Positions 22,554 through 33,627 of a stretch of 64,000 bases of DNA are shown piece by piece. Position 1 is the stretch's first letter. Every line of letters starts with the position of its first letter. Source of the stretch: Thermodesulfobacteriota bacterium (lineage in GTDB: Bacteria > Desulfobacterota > UBA8473); assembly GCA_040757775.1 (NCBI GenBank), contig JBFLWQ010000002.1, positions 124,001 to 188,000 on the forward strand, given 5' to 3'. Below the pieces are notes generated by a model that saw only the letters and a program-made list of their open reading frames with translations, was not told the origin of the DNA and made no database searches. The position numbers and the translations under genes were made by a program.

Positions 22554-23348
22554 TTATCCCAGCCACCTCTTCCTTCTCTTGTAGTGCTTCACATCCTTGT
22601 AGCTCTTTCTTTTCCCCATCTCACTGAGTCCCAGATAGAACTCTTTGATGTCTTCGTTCTCTTTTAACTTCTCAGTGGGACCATCTAAAACTATTCTGCC
22701 GTTTTCCATTACGTAACCGTATTCTGAGATGTCCAACGCCATTCTGGCGTTTTGTTCTACCAATAAAATAGAGGTGTTCTCCTCAGCATTAATACGTCTC
22801 ACTATCTTGAAAATCTCCCCCATCAACACAGGGCTGAGCCCAAGAGAAGGCTCATCTAGCAGCATAACTTTGGGGCGGGCCATAAGACCACGCCCCATCA
22901 CCAGCATCTGCCTTTCTCCACCTGAAAGATAGCCACTTGTCTGATACCTGAGGTCTTCTATCTGAGGGAAATAGCTGTAAACCAATTCCAGATCCCTTTT
23001 AATCGCTGACCTGTCACTTCGGGAAAATGCCCCTGTCAACAGGTTTTCTTCGACTGTGAGATGTTCAAATAACCTATGCCCCTCCATAACCTGCACGATT
23101 CCCATCTGGACAACATCTTCAGGGCTTTTCCTGTCTATTCTTACCCCATTAAACTCAATACTGCCATCGGTTACCTCCCCCAGCTCCGTATGAAGCAGCC
23201 CAGAGATAGCCTTCAGGGTAGTAGTCTTTCCTGCACCATTGGCTCCCAGTAGAGAAATGATTTTTCCCTCAGGCACATCCAGAGAGACCCCCTTCAGCAC
23301 AAGGATAACATCACTGTAAGTAACCTCAATGTTGTTTAGCCTCAGCAT
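22554..23348 (-). CDS. livF: Branched-chain amino acid-type ABC transporter ATPase LivF
   Basis: One of two ATPases of a HAAT-family importer. Walker A is LLGANGAGKTTTLKAI (about 33), the signature YLSGGERQMLVMGRGLM (about 140) and Walker B KVMLLDEPSLGLSP (about 160). A basic C-terminal tail (KRKSYKDVKHYKRRKRWLG) extends beyond the usual end of LivF at about 240. It is the last gene of the mutase/liv operon. In this setting the cargo is probably a carboxylic acid rather than an amino acid. Confidence 0.9.
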   Translation of the reverse strand: MLRLNNIEVTYSDVILVLKGVSLDVPEGKIISLLGANGAGKTTTLKAISGLLHTELGEVTDGSIEFNGVRIDRKSPEDVVQMGIVQVMEGHRLFEHLTVEENLLTGAFSRSDRSAIKRDLELVYSYFPQIEDLRYQTSGYLSGGERQMLVMGRGLMARPKVMLLDEPSLGLSPVLMGEIFKIVRRINAEENTSILLVEQNARMALDISEYGYVMENGRIVLDGPTEKLKENEDIKEFYLGLSEMGKRKSYKDVKHYKRRKRWLG

Positions 23349-23404: not shown

Positions 23405-23902
23405 CTACTTTGGAGCTGGCTTCAAGAATTCTATAGTGGTTGTAGAGACCTGTTCTGACTCAGCCCCTGACGCCTTAATGGTATAAACCCCGGGGGGAAT
23501 AGGGTTAAGAGACTTTGGGTCGAGAGCAAGGGTCTGCGCTATAGTACCTCTGTAGATAGTGATGATTTTTGCCATAGTCGCCATGGATGTCTTAAAGTCA
23601 CCAGCATCATCAGCATACGCATGGGCAATGGCAGCATCCTCTCCTGGTTCAATTCCTGGTATTTTCACATCTGGTGGCAGAACCATCTCTATCACAATCA
23701 TTTCCTTAGCTTCCCAGCCAGAACCGCTGAATTCAATAGGCACTTTCAGGATCGCTGGGAAGGCTAACTCTACCTTTGCCGGAGTTACTGTAACAGTTGC
23801 CTTTGTCTTTGAAGGTGGAGACTGAGACTTAGAGGCACTCAAAGGTAAGGCTAAGATCAATACTGTCAGAAGTATAATAGACATCTTTTTAAATTTTATC
23901 AT
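23405..23902 (-). CDS. Secreted protein of unknown function in the liv operon
   Basis: 165 residues with a signal peptide (about 1-23, MSIILLTVLILALPLSAS). The rest is beta-rich and begins ATVTVTPAKVELAFPAILKV, like an Ig-type or cell-surface beta-sandwich; there is no lipobox cysteine. I do not recognise a family. It lies between the substrate-binding protein and livF with 34- and 56-base gaps, so it is co-transcribed and may help substrate capture in the periplasm. The function is unknown. Confidence 0.7.
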   Translation of the reverse strand: MIKFKKMSIILLTVLILALPLSASKSQSPPSKTKATVTVTPAKVELAFPAILKVPIEFSGSGWEAKEMIVIEMVLPPDVKIPGIEPGEDAAIAHAYADDAGDFKTSMATMAKIITIYRGTIAQTLALDPKSLNPIPPGVYTIKASGAESEQVSTTTIEFLKPAPK

Positions 23903-23936: not shown

Positions 23937-25172
23937 TTACCACTTGTACAAGGCTACGGCATCAGGCGCTTTCCGCCACTTAGTTATAGGGATAACCTTA
24001 CCACCTTTGACCTGGTAAAACTTTACATCCGTGCTCCCTCGCCGTGATTTGGGGCCGTAAGCACAAGGACCAATTAAGCCCTTCAAATCATTGCCGGTGA
24101 GCTTCTGGTAAGCACGATACATAGCCTCAGCATCCAGTTTTTCATAGCCAACCTCTTTTAATGCTATCTTCAGCGCGGCTTCAAAATTCATCGCCCAGGT
24201 CATCCCGACGCCATAGAGTTCGTTTATGTCGGTAATGGGATTCTTGTGGTACTTTGTCCAGAGTTTTTTTGCCAGGGGATGCCTCTGTATCTCAGCCCCG
24301 CGAATAAGGAAAGACGCGATAATTACTCCTTCTACAACTTCCGGATGTGCCCGGATACCAACACTCTCGGTGGGACCCCACTGGTCACAAATGAACTGGA
24401 TATTCTTGGTCAACCCCAGCGCACAGGCATCCCTGATGATATTGGTTGGTGTGGGATCAATAACCCCGGTAAGATAAATGTAATTTGCCCCGGCATCAGC
24501 CAGCCTGTTCAGATAAACATCGTGTTTAAGTGTTCCCGGGGGAAAGAATTCCGGGGTTAGCAAAGTTACTCCAAGTTTTTCAGCATATTCTTTGCCACCG
24601 CGAAGAGATTCTCTACCACCTGCGGAATCCCAAGCCATATAACCCACTTTTGGCATACCTGATTTCCTCTTGTCCTTCCAGTCCTTTACCATCCAGTCAA
24701 GGGTAGCAGCAAAGGTATCCTGATAAGGGGGTCCCCAGAGGAATGCCCTGCCAATGTTTGCCTGAAACTCGCCATCAATGGTAGCCAGTGTTAGAAGATT
24801 GTCTTTCTTGATTAAAGGATAAAGTGCCCTTACTACTGCGGTGTTTATAGGATTTACAACGAGAAGTTTATGTGCCTTTCGGTACCTCTTATAGGCTGAT
24901 ACCCCCCGAGCTATGTCATAGCGGGTATCCACTCCGATAAACTCTATTTTCACGCCATTGACACCACCCTTTTCATTTAGATACTTAAAGTAATCGCTGC
25001 AACCCTGATCGCCTGGTACGTTAAGACCAGCAATAGGGCCAGTGTAATCAGCCAAACTGAGATAGGTGACGTACTTCTCCTTAGCCTCGCCATATGGAAC
25101 AAAGAGTGTTAATAATAGTAACGAAAAAACAGCACCTGTAACACATGTTGTCAATAAGCCTCTTTTTTTCAT
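23937..25172 (-). CDS. livK: Liv-type periplasmic substrate-binding protein
   Basis: A periplasmic binding protein of the leucine/amide/aromatic-acid class. It has a signal peptide of about 27 residues (MKKRGLLTTCVTGAVFSLLL), then a two-lobe fold beginning SLADYTGPIAGLNVPGDQG. I use the ATG at 25172, which has AGGAGG six bases upstream; the frame to 25199 adds nine unlikely residues. Mature length of about 385 fits. The binding pocket cannot be read by eye. With an acyl-CoA synthetase and a B12 mutase in the same operon, a carboxylate ligand is more likely than leucine. Confidence 0.88.
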   Translation of the reverse strand: MKKRGLLTTCVTGAVFSLLLLTLFVPYGEAKEKYVTYLSLADYTGPIAGLNVPGDQGCSDYFKYLNEKGGVNGVKIEFIGVDTRYDIARGVSAYKRYRKAHKLLVVNPINTAVVRALYPLIKKDNLLTLATIDGEFQANIGRAFLWGPPYQDTFAATLDWMVKDWKDKRKSGMPKVGYMAWDSAGGRESLRGGKEYAEKLGVTLLTPEFFPPGTLKHDVYLNRLADAGANYIYLTGVIDPTPTNIIRDACALGLTKNIQFICDQWGPTESVGIRAHPEVVEGVIIASFLIRGAEIQRHPLAKKLWTKYHKNPITDINELYGVGMTWAMNFEAALKIALKEVGYEKLDAEAMYRAYQKLTGNDLKGLIGPCAYGPKSRRGSTDVKFYQVKGGKVIPITKWRKAPDAVALYKW

Positions 25173-25269
25173 ATAAATCCTCCTCTCTAACTTCTTCACA
25201 TTGTCTTAATAGTAAGTATGATCTTTAATTCAATATTGACCTCCTTTCCATATTTTCACAAGTATTATC

Positions 25270-26316
25270 TCAATAGATAAATGGATAGATCCTGTATGAT
25301 GCCTTGAAAATCTCCCACCGATGAGCCAGTCCTCTGGGATCAAAGATCAGAAAAAGGATAAGTACTATGCCAAAAGCGACAATACCCAGAGATGCAGCAG
25401 GAGCCATTCCGACCCAGGGAAAAGCTGCTGCCAAAGGCGGAGAGGCAAACATTACCAGTTCATCCAGGGCACGTACAAAAATGACACCGAAAAAGACGCC
25501 AGGGATGCTGCCCATACCACCGATAATTATCATCCCAACATACCAGAGTGCATGAAAGAGGGTAAATTGCTCGGGATGTACTACCTGCATCCAGTGAGCC
25601 CATAAAGAGCCAGCAATACCAGCATAAAAGCAGGAGATGAAGAAGGCAAGGAACTTATAATAATAGAGATTAATACCCATGACCTCTCCTGCCAGGTCGT
25701 TATCCCGAATAGCCACAAATGCCCTGCCTACTTTACTCCTGACCAGATTTCTGGCAGCATACGTCATCAGTAACATAATAAATACAATTATATAGTACAT
25801 ACTTTCATCACTATCAAAGACCAGATTGCCCAGTTTTGGTGGGGGAGGATTCAGCCCGCGCGTAGCCCCTGTTATCTCAAGGTGGAGGATGAGCCACATG
25901 ACCACGAAATGGATGGCAATGGTCGCCATCGCCAGGTAAAACCCCTTAACCCTGAGGGAAGGAGCACCCCCGACAATCCCGATCAAACCAGCAACAACAC
26001 CGGAGAGAGGCAATGCAATCCAGAAGGACACCCCCAATTTGGTAGTCAGGATAGCTGAAGTGTAAGCCCCCACTGCCATAAAGGCGGCCTGACCGAAAGA
26101 TATCTGGCCGCAATAGCCGCTAACAATCTGGAGACCAAGGACAACAATAACAGTAACACTGAGATAGTTTATGAAGCTTATAATATAATAGGAGCCAAAA
26201 AGGGGAAAGGCGAAGAAAAATATTAAAGAAGCAATCAATGCCCCCCAATGCCGTTTAGTCCTGATAATGGCTATATCCTGACCATAAGTCTCATCAAAAA
26301 CACCGCAGGGGCGCAT
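25270..26316 (-). CDS. livM: Branched-chain-type ABC transporter permease LivM
   Basis: A polytopic permease with about ten hydrophobic segments. It carries the family motifs GQISFGQAAFMAVGAYTSA (about 65-85) and GRAFVAIRDNDLAGEVMGIN with MGGMGSIPG near the C-terminus. Its 348 residues include an N-terminal cytoplasmic stretch (MRPCGVFDETYGQ). It starts one base after the livH stop, with AGAGG upstream. Confidence 0.9.
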   Translation of the reverse strand: MRPCGVFDETYGQDIAIIRTKRHWGALIASLIFFFAFPLFGSYYIISFINYLSVTVIVVLGLQIVSGYCGQISFGQAAFMAVGAYTSAILTTKLGVSFWIALPLSGVVAGLIGIVGGAPSLRVKGFYLAMATIAIHFVVMWLILHLEITGATRGLNPPPPKLGNLVFDSDESMYYIIVFIMLLMTYAARNLVRSKVGRAFVAIRDNDLAGEVMGINLYYYKFLAFFISCFYAGIAGSLWAHWMQVVHPEQFTLFHALWYVGMIIIGGMGSIPGVFFGVIFVRALDELVMFASPPLAAAFPWVGMAPAASLGIVAFGIVLILFLIFDPRGLAHRWEIFKASYRIYPFIY

Positions 26317-26317
26317 A

Positions 26318-27202
26318 TTATATCCTCTCTATCCTGATTAGTCCAAAAAAACCATAGGGTTTGATCAGCAAAACCAGGAGCAGCATAACGTAGGCAGCCA
26401 CTTCTTTAACCCCACCACCAACAATGGGGTCCAGATAGCCTGCCCCCATCTCTTCCAACACCCCCAGCATCAGTCCACCAAGAAGGGCGCCAGCCAGAGA
26501 GTTCAACCCACCACACAGAGCTACTATCAATCCCTTTATACCAATATAGGGCAGAGGATAATAAATATCCATTACATTGGCTGTGGCAATACCTGCAACC
26601 GCGGCCACCACAGCAGAAATAATCCATATTATGGAAAAGATATTTCTCACCCTTATACCTGTGGCCTGGGCTAACTGATGGTCATCAGCCGTTGCCCTCA
26701 TGCCCAGCCCTGTCTTCGTATACCTGAAGAAACCCGCAAGGATGAGGAATAACAAGAGAACTAGCCCAAAGCTGAGGAGCCCCGCCAGGGGTATACCTAA
26801 ACCACCTATCTTGAGCATCCTGAGATGTAAAAAGGATGGATACGCCCTTGATTCACCTGCCAGGATGAGTTGAAAGACACCGTCCATTGCCACAAAGACG
26901 GCAAAGGTCATAAGAAAAGCAGTAAATGCGGGTTGTCCTATCAATGGACGCATTGCAAAGCGCTCTACCAGAAGCCCAATAGAGGCAGCAAAGGCAAAGG
27001 TCAGAAGCAGACTGAACCATAGAGGAAATCCCAACGGTACCAAAAATATCCAGAATAAAAGTGCCCCGAATGCCAGGAGCTGGCCGTGAGCCAAACTCAC
27101 TACTTCGGTCGACTTGTAAACCAGGACAACGGCTGCCCCAACCAAGGCATAAAGACCACCAATCATCATGCCGCTAATAACTAACTTTACAAACTCCATC
27201 AT
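26318..27202 (-). CDS. livH: Branched-chain-type ABC transporter permease LivH
   Basis: Partner permease of LivM. 294 residues; typical opening FVKLVISGMMIGGLYALVGA, AHGQLLAFGAL (about 38-48), the ABC-contact region GLGMRATADDHQLAQATGI (about 165-183) and LNSLAGALLGGLMLG. The start overlaps the end of the acyl-CoA synthetase gene by four bases (ATGA), showing tight coupling of activation and transport. Confidence 0.91.
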   Translation of the reverse strand: MMEFVKLVISGMMIGGLYALVGAAVVLVYKSTEVVSLAHGQLLAFGALLFWIFLVPLGFPLWFSLLLTFAFAASIGLLVERFAMRPLIGQPAFTAFLMTFAVFVAMDGVFQLILAGESRAYPSFLHLRMLKIGGLGIPLAGLLSFGLVLLLFLILAGFFRYTKTGLGMRATADDHQLAQATGIRVRNIFSIIWIISAVVAAVAGIATANVMDIYYPLPYIGIKGLIVALCGGLNSLAGALLGGLMLGVLEEMGAGYLDPIVGGGVKEVAAYVMLLLVLLIKPYGFFGLIRIERI

Positions 27203-29127
27203 CCAGTCACCTCGTCAACACTATTTACTTTGATGGCCGTTTTTATGACCCCCCTTCTGCCATCACGGTAAGTAATAAGTGCATCTACATTGTACTCTTT
27301 ATCCTCTCCATAGAGGGCAGCTATAAGGTTTCCATAGCGATCTTCAACAAAGGTCCTCCTTAACTTTCTCGTCCGGGTAAGCTCTGCCTCATCCGCATCG
27401 AATTCCTTATGCAGATTGACAAATCTCTTTATCCTTGTCCATTCCGGTAGTGTCCTGTTTACCTTTTTGATTTCTCCCCTCACAAGTTCGATGACCTGAT
27501 CTTTCTGGGAAAGATCAGTGAAGGTAGTATAGGGAATGTGTTTGGCTTCGGCAAACCTGCCAACATTTTCTATGTCAATATCGATCAGTGCACCAACATA
27601 TGCATTGTCCTTTCCGCCCACAACAAGGACATCTTTGATATACGGGCTGAATCTCAGTCTTATCTCTGTATACTGCGGGGAGAATTTCTTTCCGCTGGAC
27701 AGGGTCTTGAGATCATCCATGCGGTCGATAACTATCAGATGACCTTCATCATTGAGATAACCAAAATCACCGGTGCAATACCACCCATCCCTGAGCTTTG
27801 CCTCTGTTGCCTTATGATCTTTGTAATAGCCCGAATACATATATTCGCTCTTCACAAGGATCTCTCCCTCATCGGACAGCATCACTTCTGCCCATGGAAC
27901 AGGGGTACCCGATGTCTCGGGCTTTATATCTCCTTGACGAGGAGCAGAGATAAGTCCTAATTCTGTACCACCATAGAAGAGCTTTATGCCAATTCCCAGG
28001 GCTTGAAAAAAACGGATAATCTCAGGGCTTATGGCTCCCCCTGCTGAATAAACCACTTTAACATTTGACAATCCCAGATTGTCACGCAGTTGCCTGAAAA
28101 CGGCATGGTAGGCAACCAGATAAAGAATCTTCCCAAAAAGGCTGACTTTCCCTTTATTAGATTGATGATCGACTACCCTGTACCCCAAAAGAAGGAATAA
28201 CCGGTATATGAATCGCCTTAAGAAGGTAGAATCGATCATCCTTGCCTGAACCATCCTATTCACGTTCTCCCATAACCTGGCGCCATAGAAGAGGATATCC
28301 GGGCCTATTTCCCTCAGGTCTTCCTGGACTGTCTCTGGTTTCTCCGGGAAATTAACAACTACGTCTGCCAGAAGAGAACCGGATATTCCAAGAGCCTGCT
28401 CTGTCACCCACGCTGGGGGGATAAAGGAGAGGTACTCATATCCCCTGTTTGCCCATCCATCCATATTGCTCCATTCAATAACCCCACCTACCAACCATTT
28501 CTGACTAAGCATGGCACCTTTTGGAAGCCCTGTTGTGCCGGAGGTATAACATATCACGCCGATATCACCGGCACTGCCCTTATCTATATTTTCATCGAAG
28601 AGATTAGGGTGATACCTTTCCTCCGCGCAACCAATCTCCACGACTTCATCAAAGCTGATCAGTATCGGGTCGCGGTAACTCCAAAGACCTTTAGTGTCCC
28701 AGTAGATTACCTTTATGAGCATGGGCAGCTCATTCCTGATCTCCAGAAGCTTGTCCACCTGTTCCTGGTCATGGACAACCACGAATCTGGAATCGGAATG
28801 TTCAACGAAATATTTGACCTCCTGAGGTGTACAATCGGTGAATATACCCACTACGGTGGCACCGGCAGATTGAACGGCGAGTTCAGCCCAATACCATTCA
28901 GGCTTGTTCTCCCCCAATATAGAAACCTTATCACCCCTTTGAAGCCCCAGATTAATAAGGCCGAGGGAAAAGTATTTCACCTTTTCATAATAATCCTTCC
29001 ATGTGTAGCTCCGCCAGATACCCTCATCTTTTACCCTCATGGCTACCTTTTTGTCTCTATATTTTCTGTAATTTCTCCTTAAAATCTTTGGTAACGTGTC
29101 TTCTACTGTCACTTTTCCCTCTTGCAT
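27199..29127 (-). CDS. Long-type AMP-forming acyl-CoA synthetase
   Basis: A 642-residue adenylate-forming ligase (FAA1/FadD15-like). The phosphate loop is CYTSGTTGLPKGAMLS (about 192-207); YGGTELG (about 385) is the A5 motif and WYCTGDFGYLNDEG (about 452) the A7 motif. RKLRR near residue 605 lies where the C-terminal catalytic region sits. It converts an acid plus ATP and CoA to the acyl-CoA. Lodged between livG and livH, it would trap the imported acid as its CoA ester. Such ligases inside liv operons are known for aromatic and branched acids; the chain preference cannot be told here. Confidence 0.9.
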   Translation of the reverse strand: MQEGKVTVEDTLPKILRRNYRKYRDKKVAMRVKDEGIWRSYTWKDYYEKVKYFSLGLINLGLQRGDKVSILGENKPEWYWAELAVQSAGATVVGIFTDCTPQEVKYFVEHSDSRFVVVHDQEQVDKLLEIRNELPMLIKVIYWDTKGLWSYRDPILISFDEVVEIGCAEERYHPNLFDENIDKGSAGDIGVICYTSGTTGLPKGAMLSQKWLVGGVIEWSNMDGWANRGYEYLSFIPPAWVTEQALGISGSLLADVVVNFPEKPETVQEDLREIGPDILFYGARLWENVNRMVQARMIDSTFLRRFIYRLFLLLGYRVVDHQSNKGKVSLFGKILYLVAYHAVFRQLRDNLGLSNVKVVYSAGGAISPEIIRFFQALGIGIKLFYGGTELGLISAPRQGDIKPETSGTPVPWAEVMLSDEGEILVKSEYMYSGYYKDHKATEAKLRDGWYCTGDFGYLNDEGHLIVIDRMDDLKTLSSGKKFSPQYTEIRLRFSPYIKDVLVVGGKDNAYVGALIDIDIENVGRFAEAKHIPYTTFTDLSQKDQVIELVRGEIKKVNRTLPEWTRIKRFVNLHKEFDADEAELTRTRKLRRTFVEDRYGNLIAALYGEDKEYNVDALITYRDGRRGVIKTAIKVNSVDEVTG

Positions 29128-29136
29128 GGGATATAC

Positions 29137-29913
29137 TTACGCTTCATCTTTCCCCAAATATGCCTTAATCACCGCGGGGTTATTCTTTATCTCCAGAGGG
29201 GTCCCTTCGGCGATCTTCTCTCCAAAATCAAGGGCAACAACCCTGTTAACAATATCCATTACTACCCCCATATCGTGTTCCACTAAGACGATGGGAATCT
29301 TTCTCAGTTCAAAGATATCCAGGATAAACCGAGCCATATCTTCTTTTTCCTCAACATTCATCCCTGCCATAGGTTCATCGAGCAGGAGGAGCTTTGGCTC
29401 CATAACCAGAGCCCTGCCCAGGTCAACCCTCTTTCGCTGACCATAAGGAAGAGACCCCACAACTTTTTTCCTTATTCCTTCTAACTCCAGAAGATCAATA
29501 ATCTTCTCTACCACCTTCCGATTCTCTATCTCCTCCCTGCGGGTTGGTCCAAAGTGTAAGGCAGCAGCCAGTGCCCCGCGCCTCATATGGATATGCCTTG
29601 CTGCCATAAGATTATCCAGGGCACTGAGTCCGGTGTAAAGTTCTATGTTTTGAAAGGTCCTAGCAATTCCCAGCTTGGCAATCTTATATGGGGGCAAATG
29701 GGTAATCCTCTCGCCTTCAAAATATATATCCCCTTTCTGTGGCCGATAAAATCGATTGATGCAGTTTAGGATACAGGTCTTCCCAGCCCCATTTGGACCT
29801 ATAATACCAAGAATCTCTCCCTCTCTTACCTCGAGACTAACGCATGAGAGGGCTTGAACTCCACCAAATTTCAATTCTATATTATCAATAGTTAGCTTAA
29901 CCTTTTTATCCAT
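29137..29913 (-). CDS. livG: Branched-chain-type ABC transporter ATPase LivG
   Basis: Second ATPase of the importer. Walker A IIGPNGAGKTCILNCI (about 35), LivG-type insert, signature LPYGQRKRVDLGRAL (about 155; the usual LSGGQ is replaced as in most LivG), Walker B KLLLLDEPMAGMN (about 175) and H-loop VEHDMGVVMDI. Length 258. It is 30 bases after meaB and 9 bases before the ligase. Confidence 0.91.
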   Translation of the reverse strand: MDKKVKLTIDNIELKFGGVQALSCVSLEVREGEILGIIGPNGAGKTCILNCINRFYRPQKGDIYFEGERITHLPPYKIAKLGIARTFQNIELYTGLSALDNLMAARHIHMRRGALAAALHFGPTRREEIENRKVVEKIIDLLELEGIRKKVVGSLPYGQRKRVDLGRALVMEPKLLLLDEPMAGMNVEEKEDMARFILDIFELRKIPIVLVEHDMGVVMDIVNRVVALDFGEKIAEGTPLEIKNNPAVIKAYLGKDEA

Positions 29914-29943: not shown

Positions 29944-30921
29944 TCAATAAATCTCGTTCAAGACCTCTTTTACATCATTCCGCAGCATTTCCAGTGCTAT
30001 ATTCGTGGCCTGTGTGAAGTCGATTTCCTTTGACATAACCCTACCTGCCAGATCCCATAGTGTAGCCTTGTTCCATGTTGAAGAAAGCTGAGCAAATGCC
30101 ATCCGCCGGATCAGATAACCGATATGACGCTGACGACGAGTCATCCTTTCCCCCGAAGTAGTGAGATAATCCTGATGTTCTTGGATATGCTGCCACAGTT
30201 TGTCCACCCCATCGCCAGTGTCCGCTCTTGTCTGGGTAACCTTAGGAATCCAGCCGGAGGTCTGACGATAATCCAGCATCAGTTCAATGTCCCGGGCCGC
30301 CGTTTCTGCTCCAGGCTGGTCCATTTTGTTGATTACATATATGTCTGCTATCTCAAGCAGACCAGCCTTCGCAACCTGCATAGTGTCACCCCAGCCGGGA
30401 ACAAGGACCACGATCGTTGTATCTGTAACCTCTGCTATCTCCACATCGATCTGGCCTGCTCCGGCAGTCTCAATCAGGACAATCTCCATACCAAGGGCAA
30501 TCAAAACTTCTATTGCCTCTCCGATACACGCAGACAGCCCCCCAAGATGACCACGCGTTCCAAGACTCCTGATCAGGATGTTCTTATCATGACAATGGCT
30601 TAGCATCCGAACTCTATCCCCCAGCACTGCCCCACCCGAAAACGGGCTGCTCGGATCAACCGCCAGTACAGCAACCTTCTTTTGTTCCTTTTTCCAAATA
30701 TCTAGGAGGCAGTCAATCAAGGAGCTTTTCCCAGCTCCTGGGGGACCTGTCAACCCTATTATACAGCAATCATGGGAGAGAACCCCTTTTTTCTGAATAA
30801 GATCCAGGGTTTCTATTGCCTGATTTTCAACCACGGAAAGAAGTCTCCCCATAGCGATCCTATCTCCTGATCTGGCTTTGTCAAACAGTTTCAGATTGTC
30901 TTCATTTTCAACCTCTTTCAT
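29944..30921 (-). CDS. meaB: MeaB/ArgK-type G3E GTPase, chaperone of a B12 mutase
   Basis: A GTPase that loads and protects cobalamin in acyl-CoA mutases. P-loop GLTGPPGAGKSSLIDCLL (about 56), Mg-binding VDPSSPFSGGAVLGDRVRM (about 95), ETAGAGQIDVEIAE (about 150) and NKMDQPGA (about 195). Length 325. It overlaps the B12-subunit gene by four bases (ATGA), so it surely serves that mutase. Presence of a dedicated chaperone supports the mutase being an adenosylcobalamin enzyme despite its divergence. Confidence 0.93.
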   Translation of the reverse strand: MKEVENEDNLKLFDKARSGDRIAMGRLLSVVENQAIETLDLIQKKGVLSHDCCIIGLTGPPGAGKSSLIDCLLDIWKKEQKKVAVLAVDPSSPFSGGAVLGDRVRMLSHCHDKNILIRSLGTRGHLGGLSACIGEAIEVLIALGMEIVLIETAGAGQIDVEIAEVTDTTIVVLVPGWGDTMQVAKAGLLEIADIYVINKMDQPGAETAARDIELMLDYRQTSGWIPKVTQTRADTGDGVDKLWQHIQEHQDYLTTSGERMTRRQRHIGYLIRRMAFAQLSSTWNKATLWDLAGRVMSKEIDFTQATNIALEMLRNDVKEVLNEIY

Positions 30922-31346
30922 ACCGTTTTGCCTCCACTGTCTCTCACCTGGGAGACCGTTTGCTTGATCTGGTCCACGATGCTGCCCAGGCTAACGCCAG
31001 GTAGAAAGACCCCGCGAACTCCAATAGCTTCCAATGCGGATGTGTCTTCAGGAGGAATAGTTCCCCCAACAAATACGCTAACCCGGGAGTCCATCCCTTT
31101 TTCTTTAAGGACATTCATAGTTTCATCGATCCAGCCAAAGTAGCTTAACGTATGGAAACTCAGCCCGATTGCGTCTACATCCTCAATAGCCGCTGTTTCA
31201 ACAACCGTCTGTGGTGTCTGAAAACACCCAAGGTATACAACTTCCATCCCCGCATCGCGAAAGGCATACGATAGCACCTGTAAGGGCCTGATATGGTCGT
31301 CAAGTCCCAATTTGGCAAGTACAAGTCGAACAGGTTTCTCCGCCAT
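30918..31346 (-). CDS. Cobalamin-binding small subunit of an acyl-CoA mutase
   Basis: A 142-residue B12-binding domain of the methylmalonyl-CoA mutase C-terminal type, as a separate subunit. The lower axial ligand is His18 in LGLDDHIRP. The usual DxHxxG is here DxHxxP, so the Gly is replaced by Pro21. The other nucleotide-loop motifs are present as GLSFHTLSYF (about 61) and VFVGGTIPPED (about 92). It lies 15 bases after the large subunit and overlaps meaB. Function in the named pathway is unknown because the partner subunit is atypical. Confidence 0.88.
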   Translation of the reverse strand: MAEKPVRLVLAKLGLDDHIRPLQVLSYAFRDAGMEVVYLGCFQTPQTVVETAAIEDVDAIGLSFHTLSYFGWIDETMNVLKEKGMDSRVSVFVGGTIPPEDTSALEAIGVRGVFLPGVSLGSIVDQIKQTVSQVRDSGGKTV

Positions 31347-31361
31347 AATATTCTCCTCCCT

Positions 31362-33143
31362 TTAATCGTAGTATAGCCAATCAGGGCGTGATACCATTTC
31401 GAACTGATCATATGGGAAGCCCATGCCTTCCCGAACCACACCCATGACTTCTCCAATAGTAGCATTGCACTTAAAAGCCTTTATCATAGCCGGCAGAACG
31501 TTTTTCCCCGATTTGGTCACCTGATAGAGTTCTCTCAAGGATGGTGCGGTTTCCTTAACATCCCGGCTCTTCATGAAATCATACCACTCACTCCAGTCTT
31601 TTTCCTGTTTTGTCGTGTAGCCTTTACCCTGCTTGCCCCGTTCAAAATCAAACCCGGGTAGTGGGATGGGGTAATCATTTAGATCCTCATAAGCGTTTTC
31701 TGCCACACGGATTTTTCGACCTTCTTCCAGTTCCCTGGCTCTCTCCTGTGCTGCTCTTTCCACCTCTTTCTGTATCCACCCATTCTTGATACAGGCTCTC
31801 ATACCCCCCATGTCCAGAATCTTCTGGAGAAGTTCCATTGATTTTTCCTCTATATGATTGGTCAGCCATTCAACATAGTATGACCCTCCAAGTGGATCTG
31901 ATACCAACGGAATGTTCGCCTCTTCTGCCAGAATCTTTTCAATTCCCCTGTTTACGATCCACCCCTCTGTAGTAGGGGGACTTACTGCCTCCGTATATGC
32001 CTTCATCTCCATTCCATTAACCCCGCCCAAGACGCTGGCCATTGCCTCAATGGTCTGACGAACCACGTTTAAGATTGGCTGTCGTTGGGTCATTGAATCC
32101 CCGGCACAGTTTGTACCAACAGGGGGACACTTCATCTTTGATGTATCAGCACCATAACGATCCCGACCTATCCTGGCCCACATACGTCGGGCTGCCCTCA
32201 ATTTACATATAGTCTCAAAGAAGTCGATCTCGCCGCTGAATGCCATGGCAGGACGATTTCCAAATTCTTCAAAACTCAACCCACGACGTACAAGTTCATC
32301 CGAATATTCAATAAAATTGCCAAAACGGAAGCCCAACTCCTGGAACGTATTAATCCCAGCCTCTCTGAGGTCATAGGCACAACCACCATTGGTTGGCCTA
32401 TACTTATGTATGTTTCTATAGGCATATTCCTGGGCGTCTACCGACACCCGGAATCCTACCTCCAGGGGCTGTTTATAAAGCATACACTGATTGATATGGG
32501 ATGTAAGGGGGTCATTTACCATATTGCCATGGAATTCTTTGGGGTTAAGCCCCATAATCTCGATTCCGGCGAGGCACATAGAAAACTCGCACACATCAGC
32601 AGGGCCGACCTGGTGTCCGAACTCGAAGACAAGCCCATCCTTTACGCTCCTCTCCAGGATGAGCTGATAGTGCTTCTTCCTGCCATGGAATATCTGCCAC
32701 ACAGAAAAAAAAGTCCCCGCACAATTGCCGATGTCATATTTGACAAGAGGATGATCCGGATCAACAGTTGCAAGGTTATGGTAATCTCCCCCGGTCCTGA
32801 TGGCAGAGCACAATATGCCCAGGCGAATCATCTCCCGCATGTAGTCCTCGCTCGAAATTCCCTTTTCCTCCATATAAGGCGTACTACCTCCAATCAGGGG
32901 ATTTCCAGAGGTCCACAGCCTTTCCCGATACATCCTCCGATACGATCCTCTCACATAGGGAAACTCCCCAGGCCGACCTATATCTTTTTCATAGTTCAGG
33001 TGGGCGATGTCTTCTGGGCAGTAGACTTCTTTTACCTCAATACCCGACTGGGTCTTCCCATCACCTTTGATAGTCCGGTCAGAATCACCACCAACTTTTC
33101 TCTCCAGTTTCTCCTGTGTTCCTGATATCTCTTGAATACTCAT
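31362..33143 (-). CDS. Divergent B12-dependent acyl-CoA mutase, large subunit
   Basis: A 593-residue TIM-barrel subunit of the methylmalonyl-CoA mutase family: PGEFPYVRGSYRRMYRERLW (59-78), EAGINTFQELGF (261-272), KLRAARRMWARIGRDRYGA and SDPLGGSYYVEWLT. Tyr68, Met71 and Arg75 match Tyr75, Met78 and Arg82 of the Propionibacterium enzyme. The segment after them (TSGNPLIGG) has no Tyr89, the His244 position reads Asp258 (AYDLREAG instead of GYHMQEAG) and the Arg207 position appears as Gln219. These changes make methylmalonyl-CoA unlikely as substrate. The ATG at 33143 has GGGAGG seven bases upstream. Second gene of the merR operon. Alignment was by eye. Confidence 0.88.
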   Translation of the reverse strand: MSIQEISGTQEKLERKVGGDSDRTIKGDGKTQSGIEVKEVYCPEDIAHLNYEKDIGRPGEFPYVRGSYRRMYRERLWTSGNPLIGGSTPYMEEKGISSEDYMREMIRLGILCSAIRTGGDYHNLATVDPDHPLVKYDIGNCAGTFFSVWQIFHGRKKHYQLILERSVKDGLVFEFGHQVGPADVCEFSMCLAGIEIMGLNPKEFHGNMVNDPLTSHINQCMLYKQPLEVGFRVSVDAQEYAYRNIHKYRPTNGGCAYDLREAGINTFQELGFRFGNFIEYSDELVRRGLSFEEFGNRPAMAFSGEIDFFETICKLRAARRMWARIGRDRYGADTSKMKCPPVGTNCAGDSMTQRQPILNVVRQTIEAMASVLGGVNGMEMKAYTEAVSPPTTEGWIVNRGIEKILAEEANIPLVSDPLGGSYYVEWLTNHIEEKSMELLQKILDMGGMRACIKNGWIQKEVERAAQERARELEEGRKIRVAENAYEDLNDYPIPLPGFDFERGKQGKGYTTKQEKDWSEWYDFMKSRDVKETAPSLRELYQVTKSGKNVLPAMIKAFKCNATIGEVMGVVREGMGFPYDQFEMVSRPDWLYYD

Positions 33144-33183
33144 AATCCAACCTCCCACGATTGTTGATGCAAGGTTTACTAAA

Positions 33184-33627
33184 CTACCGTTTTCTTTTGT
33201 CTCTTTGCTTCAGGAGTGATTGCAGCCTTTCAGACTCGTTAACCAGGATGCTTTTACTAACTTTAAGCTGTTCTTCTTGAGCAGAAACTCTCTTGATATG
33301 TTCCTTCAACATCTCGATGGAGCGTTCAATCACTTCCTTCTCCGTCGGATCCGGAGATTGAAAGAGTGACGATAATTCACTGATCTCATTCAGGCTAAGG
33401 CCAAGCAGACTTTTTGCCCTCTTGAGCAATTTTAAAAAATAGACGTCTCTTTCGGTATATCTCCTTCGATTGTAAGGATCCCTTGAAATCCCCCCCAATA
33501 TGCCTATTTCTTCATAATAGCGAATAGATCGAGGCGTGAGTTTAACTTTCTCGGCAAGTTCTTTGATTGTCATTGTTTTCTTAAACTCGCGCCCTTCAGA
33601 TGTACTTTCCTCTGCTTTTTTCAACAA
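33184..33627 (-). CDS. MerR-family transcriptional regulator
   Basis: 147 residues; winged helix-turn-helix at about 19-85 (TIKELAEKVKLTPRSIRYYEEIG, then YNRRRYTERDVYFLKLL) and a C-terminal coiled coil (about 95-145). No cysteine cluster for metal binding is seen, so it may sense an organic ligand such as an acyl-CoA. The start is TTG at 33627 with AGGAG upstream. It is the first gene of the operon with the mutase, MeaB, acyl-CoA synthetase and Liv genes, 40 bases before the mutase start, and probably regulates it. Confidence 0.87.
   Translation of the reverse strand: MLKKAEESTSEGREFKKTMTIKELAEKVKLTPRSIRYYEEIGILGGISRDPYNRRRYTERDVYFLKLLKRAKSLLGLSLNEISELSSLFQSPDPTEKEVIERSIEMLKEHIKRVSAQEEQLKVSKSILVNESERLQSLLKQRDKRKR

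Follow-up and report, generated by a model that had tools for sequence, protein, structure and literature searches.

A probable adenosylcobalamin-dependent acyl-CoA mutase of the Asp244 type, encoded with predicted importer, CoA ligase and MeaB genes

The mutase gene and its operon

The window, by which we mean the whole 64,000-nucleotide stretch of DNA analysed here, encodes on its minus strand a complete open reading frame running from 33143 to 31362 (Table 1), with an ATG start at 33143 just downstream of GGGAGG and a stop codon at 31364-31362; on the plus strand the interval 31362-33143 is filled with stop codons throughout. The PF01642 profile matches the encoded protein from end to end (model positions 1-512 of 512, E 9e-101, score 338 bits, cut-off 22.1), which bears out its earlier assignment to the methylmalonyl-CoA mutase (MCM) family. 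Its score with the NCBIfam model TIGR00641 (acyl-CoA mutase N-terminal domain) is 275.8 bits, under the cut-off of 303.8, and with TIGR00642 (MCM beta chain, MutA type) 145.6 bits against a cut-off of 617. The best solved relatives by sequence are 2-hydroxyisobutyryl-CoA mutase (HCM; PDB 4r3u), human MCM, Mtb MCM, Propionibacterium MCM and IcmF. AlphaFold reached a pLDDT of 34 from two input sequences and of 54, with a pTM of 0.61, from six; the latter model suffices for a fold match, not for pocket geometry, and the top structural matches of this low-confidence fold are HCM and MCM.

The mutase belongs to an operon that runs in one direction from 33627 to 22554 in the order MerR regulator, mutase large subunit, mutase small subunit, MeaB, LivG, acyl-CoA ligase, LivH, LivM, LivK, 165-residue protein and LivF. 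No gene for an acyl-CoA dehydrogenase or hydratase was found in the operon, and at the Rfam gathering threshold the window holds no RNA family and hence no cobalamin riboswitch.

Table 1. Genes and sequence features of the mutase operon, with their positions in the window
Feature	Position	Strand	Basis
MerR-family regulator, directly upstream of the mutase	33184..33627	-	profile
Large subunit, binding the substrate, of the AdoCbl-dependent acyl-CoA mutase; 593 aa, Asp244 type	31362..33143	-	open reading frame, PF01642, alignment, tree
Gln219 codon, Arg207 position; Arg in both Rokubacteria homologs	32487..32489	-	alignment
Asp258 codon, His244 position of Propionibacterium MCM	32370..32372	-	alignments and arithmetic from the ATG at 33143
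CPPVGTN block, residues 339-345, in place of LRxHxQT; His328 to Gly, Gln330 to Asn	32109..32129	-	alignment
B12-binding small subunit, 142 aa	30918..31346	-	profile
DDHIRP: DxHxxP replacing DxHxxG, axial-ligand His kept	31284..31301	-	small-subunit alignment
MeaB, cofactor-loading GTPase; 4-nt overlap with small-subunit gene	29944..30921	-	profile
LivG-like ABC ATPase	29137..29913	-	profile
Acyl-CoA ligase (AMP-binding and AMP-binding_C_3)	27199..29127	-	profile
LivH-like permease; 4-nt overlap with ligase gene	26318..27202	-	resemblance only
LivM-like permease	25270..26316	-	resemblance only
LivK-like periplasmic solute-binding protein	23937..25199	-	PF13458 at G000:C2:147997-149055
165-aa putative secreted protein inside the operon	23405..23902	-	open reading frame only
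LivF-like ABC ATPase	22554..23348	-	resemblance only

Among 30 aligned small subunits, nearly all keep the glycine that ends DxHxxG, a few varying elsewhere in the motif, and proline in its place occurs only in the window protein and its Rokubacteria counterpart (DDHTRP). As the axial histidine and its aspartate are both present, cobalamin binding would be expected. MeaB proteins deliver AdoCbl to their mutases (PMC10481361), and the host genome has only two such genes, one in the window operon and the other beside a canonical MCM; with two MeaB proteins for 28 mutases, the one encoded here may therefore serve many paralogs.

Two homologs from Rokubacteria, one from 'Candidatus Rokubacteria bacterium GWA2_70_23' and one represented by loci L071 and L073, are 50-52% identical to the window mutase and retain Asp258 together with the motifs NGGCAYD, CPPVxTN and VNGMExKAYTE. 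Between these two homologs dN is 0.079 and dS 0.58 (dN/dS about 0.14), and the first 105 codons of the window gene differ from those of a sibling species by six synonymous and no non-synonymous changes. The intact frame, the persistence of the Asp258 block at this level of identity and the purifying selection together exclude chance or decay. Only the 5' end of the gene is present in the sibling genome, at a contig edge, along with the same MerR gene and flanking genes; the MerR gene and mutase 5' end (window 33040-33627 against L010 3868-4647) are 97% identical and the neighbouring genes 88-91%, a contrast that could reflect either stronger constraint or recent exchange. Among 395 genomes of its own phylum, no close relative (E 1e-120) was found outside the window's own genome. 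Around the Rokubacteria homolog and its B12 subunit are encoded acyl-CoA dehydrogenases and enoyl-CoA hydratases, together with a CoA ligase, an amidohydrolase and a protein resembling citrate synthase. A short gene of the last kind, covering the C-terminal domain (L073 6752-7582), directly precedes the Rokubacteria mutase and is a possible C-C cleaving partner.

Active-site residues and comparison with known mutases

Catalytic positions are numbered here as in Propionibacterium MCM, with which the 1req alignment agrees once the missing first residue is counted. The window mutase keeps Y75, M78 and R82 (its own Tyr68, Met71 and Arg75) as well as Y243, E247, R283 and E370, and has replaced Arg87, Tyr89, Arg207, His244, His328, Gln330 and Gln361. 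Arg87, Phe117 and His328 have become glycine, Gln330 and Gln361 have become asparagine, and the Tyr89 position falls in a rebuilt stretch, TSGNPLIGG, around Leu/Pro. Thr384 stands directly before the Glu370 position, where 99% of other family rows have aspartate. The match of Asp258 to His244 (CAYDLREAGI against SGYHMQEAGA) is not in doubt, since conserved Tyr and Glu-x-Gly flank it on either side. On each of these points, namely the retained Tyr, Met and Arg, the lost Tyr89, Gln219 at position 207 and Asp258 (AYDLREAG) at position 244, the alignment agrees with the preliminary description. The changes are not uniform within the clade formed by the window protein and its Rokubacteria homologs, both of which have Gln at Met71 and Arg at Gln219. 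His122 and His177 are invariant across this clade, His122 being missing from nearly all other family rows at its column, and either may line the pocket or supply a hydrogen bond.

In Propionibacterium MCM, His244 touches the thioester carbonyl, and Arg207 and Tyr89 touch the second carboxylate of the substrate. With all three replaced, another acyl group is predicted: the alignment indicates an acyl pocket altered relative to MCM, and methylmalonyl, isobutyryl and 2-hydroxyisobutyryl are improbable as the acyl group. The earlier suggestion of a substrate free of a second carboxylate is favoured by Gln219 and the lost Tyr89 but weakened because both nearest homologs carry Arg at 207, so that the position is not fixed in the clade. 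His occupies position 244 in every solved large subunit without mutations that we examined, and IcmF is no exception; the PDB also holds the mutant structures 1e1c and 5req.

Compared with MCM (human MMUT, Propionibacterium, Mycobacterium and E. coli ScpA), the window mutase shares the fold, the family and Y75, M78, R82, R283 and E370, yet is only 24-26% identical and differs at all seven replaced positions; Tyr89, Arg207 and His244 are lacking, and placement in the MCM clade is marginally rejected by the approximately unbiased (AU) test. HCM (HcmA/HcmB) likewise has separate large and small subunits and Gln at 207, but keeps His244, His328 and Gln330 and has Asp in the 116 column (D117 in HCM), where the window mutase has Gly. 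With Gly in place of Asp117, Asp258 in place of His244 and the HCM clade rejected by the AU test, an assignment as HCM fails. IcmF (PDB 4xc6, 5cjw) and the isobutyryl-CoA mutase (ICM)-like paralog L011 have lost Tyr89 and Arg207 in the same direction but keep the histidine (ISGYHIAEAG), and IcmF fuses the GTPase and B12 domain that are encoded by separate genes here; of the ICM/IcmF residues Phe89, Gln207 and His244 only Gln207 is present. Assignment as an MCM beta chain is set aside as well, the protein falling short of TIGR00642 and a second large subunit being absent from the operon. A mutase on a plasmid of Paraburkholderia sp. PGU19 also has Asp at 244 and an adjacent B12 subunit and MeaB, and in one tree is, weakly, the nearest row to the window clade; it differs in having about 31% identity, Ala and His at 328 and 330, and a neighbourhood of two acyl-CoA dehydrogenases and an enoyl-CoA hydratase without an importer or ligase.

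The Asp244 group and the paralogs of the host genome

In a tree of 55 rows, the window protein groups with the two Rokubacteria proteins at a support of 100, and the stem of this clade, at 1.3 changes per column, is long enough to leave the exact position of the clade uncertain. A branch with a support of 96 separates a side of 19 rows, namely 16 Asp rows and single Ala, Tyr and Asn rows, from the MCM, ICM-like and HCM rows opposite. A second tree, in which a branch with a support of 80 sets the Asp rows and one Ala row (L036) apart from the others, is suggestive of the same grouping, not decisive. The AU test rejected grouping the window clade with HCM (p 0.018) and marginally rejected grouping it with MCM (p 0.047). 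Named ethylmalonyl- (Ecm), pivalyl- (Pcm), benzylmalonyl- (IaaG) and alkylmalonyl-CoA mutases were not among the rows. The alignment and tree, part of the check that the preliminary description had proposed, support a position outside every characterised clade that was placed, isolated from MCM, ICM-like enzymes and HCM. We define the Asp244 group of PF01642 by Asp at 244 together with a place on the Asp side of the tree, both of which hold for the window protein, and on sequence grounds we regard this protein as a new subfamily within the wider group, marked by CAYD, by CPPVxTN and by DxHxxP in its partner.

The host genome (3.1 Mb in 50 contigs) has 29 PF01642 matches, comprising 28 complete large subunits and one cut at a contig end. 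Residue 244 of the complete paralogs is Asp in ten, His in six, Asn in four, Val in three, Ala in two, with one paralog each for Gln, Tyr and Gly; just two (L012 and L013) have the full Y89/R207/H244 set. Because ten of the 28 share Asp244, the window gene is not a lone oddity. The earlier remark that no named mutase was known with this combination of residues stands in so far as the protein lies outside the characterised clades tested and the solved wild-type large subunits examined keep His; Asp244 itself, however, recurs in other proteins. A B12 small subunit adjoins most of the complete mutase genes. All eight genomes surveyed from the bacterial family carry 13-30 PF01642 matches each, a genome-wide specialisation on B12 acyl-CoA mutases; in first-look counts, the other genomes of the phylum that were covered gave at most 11 matches for the window protein. 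Asp244 occurs as well in the Rokubacteria proteins and the Paraburkholderia plasmid protein; with the exception of the latter, the named plasmid homologs of other Asp244 paralogs are of the His type. A scan of IMG/VR returned four distant family members, three of which span position 244 and have His or Asn there. In a search of mostly non-subscription papers, we found no literature that describes the Asp244 group or genomes carrying dozens of mutases. The Asp-type enzymes make up a deep and apparently unstudied part of the mutase family, and the window enzyme probably has a substrate and chemistry unlike those of textbook mutases.

The host genome also has 40 matches to the acyl-CoA dehydrogenase profile PF00441 and about 77 to PF13458, the profile of LivK-type solute-binding proteins. 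Roughly half of the mutase genes have one or two LivK-type genes next to them (for example L076, L110 and L125), often with no transporter gene detected nearby in a limited tblastn set. Active-site positions are extremely varied among the mutases of the eight genomes. L036 (G000:C4:50220-51776), nested among Asp244 enzymes, has Ala at 243 and 244 and Gly at 283. The mutase L033 (L115 7194-9294; L129 2842-5065) is without the residues near 117-118 and 207, and in its small subunit PGHSTG takes the place of DxHxxG; the odd pair is conserved in a second genome. On a plasmid of Sphingobium sp. TomTYG65 (L138 2962-6079), a mutase with Ala243, Gln244 and Pro247 has its own B12 subunit and GTPase, and genes for a cytochrome P450 and a TonB receptor lie close by.

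Proposed function and its alternatives

We favour, with a probability of roughly 0.6, the reading that the window encodes a two-subunit AdoCbl-dependent acyl-CoA mutase of an uncharacterised subfamily that acts in a module of uptake, activation and rearrangement. The LivKHMGF-like importer would bring in a branched or substituted carboxylic acid; going by their families, the acyl-CoA ligase would make its thioester and MeaB would load and protect the cofactor. Fold, cofactor subunit and operon suggest that the mutase would then generate a substrate radical and shift the thioester carbonyl to the adjacent carbon, and that the isomer so formed would be open to general beta-oxidation. Asp258 and the clade-specific H122, E174, H177, N252 and T384 may stand in for the MCM contacts. 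To our knowledge, an activity is known for no Asp244 enzyme. This module is favoured by MeaB, ligase and ABC genes that are codirectional with the mutase, with 4-nt overlaps, and by the acyl-CoA dehydrogenases, enoyl-CoA hydratases and CoA ligase at the Rokubacteria mutase locus. The reading as a mutase draws further on the full-length PF01642 match, the predicted fold, the B12-binding partner, the tree and the purifying selection. Precedents for such an operon may be seen in the Methylibium and Xanthobacter plasmid loci for HCM, where the mutase has genes for a CoA ligase and for MeaB as neighbours, and in the iaa pathway, in which a B12 mutase is combined with a binding protein and a CoA ligase; by this pathway description, the IaaGH mutase of Aromatoleum aromaticum is likened to ours as acting after binding-protein-dependent uptake and a CoA ligase (PMC8360864). 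Against the module stands the lack of a uniform substrate pocket in the clade, with Gln at 207 here and Arg in the nearest homologs, as does the absence of a dehydrogenase or hydratase gene from the operon; the cargo of the Liv-type importer might also be an amino acid that has nothing to do with the mutase.

The protein could instead be a diverged mutase of a known type (isobutyryl-, 2-hydroxyisobutyryl-, ethylmalonyl-, pivalyl-, or benzylmalonyl/alkylmalonyl-CoA) that works on its usual substrate, the lost contacts being supplied from elsewhere, for example by His122 or His177. HCM as the best solved relative, the Gln shared at 207 with HCM and ICM-like proteins, and the invariance of these two histidines in the clade would fit such an origin, but we consider it unlikely in view of the AU results, an identity to HCM of only 29% and the Arg at 207 in the nearest homologs, where the AU and identity evidence bears on HCM and MCM rather than on Ecm, Pcm, IaaG and the alkylmalonyl-CoA mutases.

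With seven MCM active-site positions and the Asp before Glu370 changed, the protein may catalyse a different reaction. A radical enzyme that shares the fold and uses AdoCbl but performs no carbonyl shift, and instead an elimination, an amino-group shift or some other radical reaction on a CoA ester, would account for the joint loss of His244, Arg87, His328, Gln330 and the Asp before Glu370, and acidic pocket residues in Asp244 paralogs, with Glu at 116 as well in L034-L037, might accommodate a cationic acyl group. The CoA-side residues Y75, R82 and R283 are nonetheless kept, as is Glu370, and a CoA ligase and MeaB are encoded in the operon just as they are for mutases, which makes such a reaction quite improbable. 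A catalytically dead or regulatory protein, comparable to the beta chain in the MCM heterodimer, we hold very improbable: MCM beta chains have likewise lost many catalytic residues, but the window protein is the sole large subunit of an operon with its own B12 subunit and MeaB, scores higher with the general mutase model (275.8 bits) than with the beta-chain model (145.6 bits), and is under purifying selection, and since 22 of the 28 paralogs are without His244, most of the set would have to be dead, which is unlikely.

Beyond the module, we advance with considerable doubt a broader proposal: that the Asp244 group, a large part of the MCM family, uses a carboxylate-containing pocket in place of the His244 contact to stabilise the thioester radical as it migrates, that the window subfamily catalyses an undescribed rearrangement, and that this bacterial family bases its metabolism on 13-30 different B12 mutases in each genome.

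His244 is regarded as part of the core machinery of MCM. An Asp244 group that is selected and expanded within genomes would test whether this histidine is needed for the radical rearrangement itself or for certain substrates only, and the Asp244 mutases would offer a set of very different pockets for carbon-skeleton chemistry. The bacterial lineage that carries them may consume branched acids that are otherwise hard to degrade.
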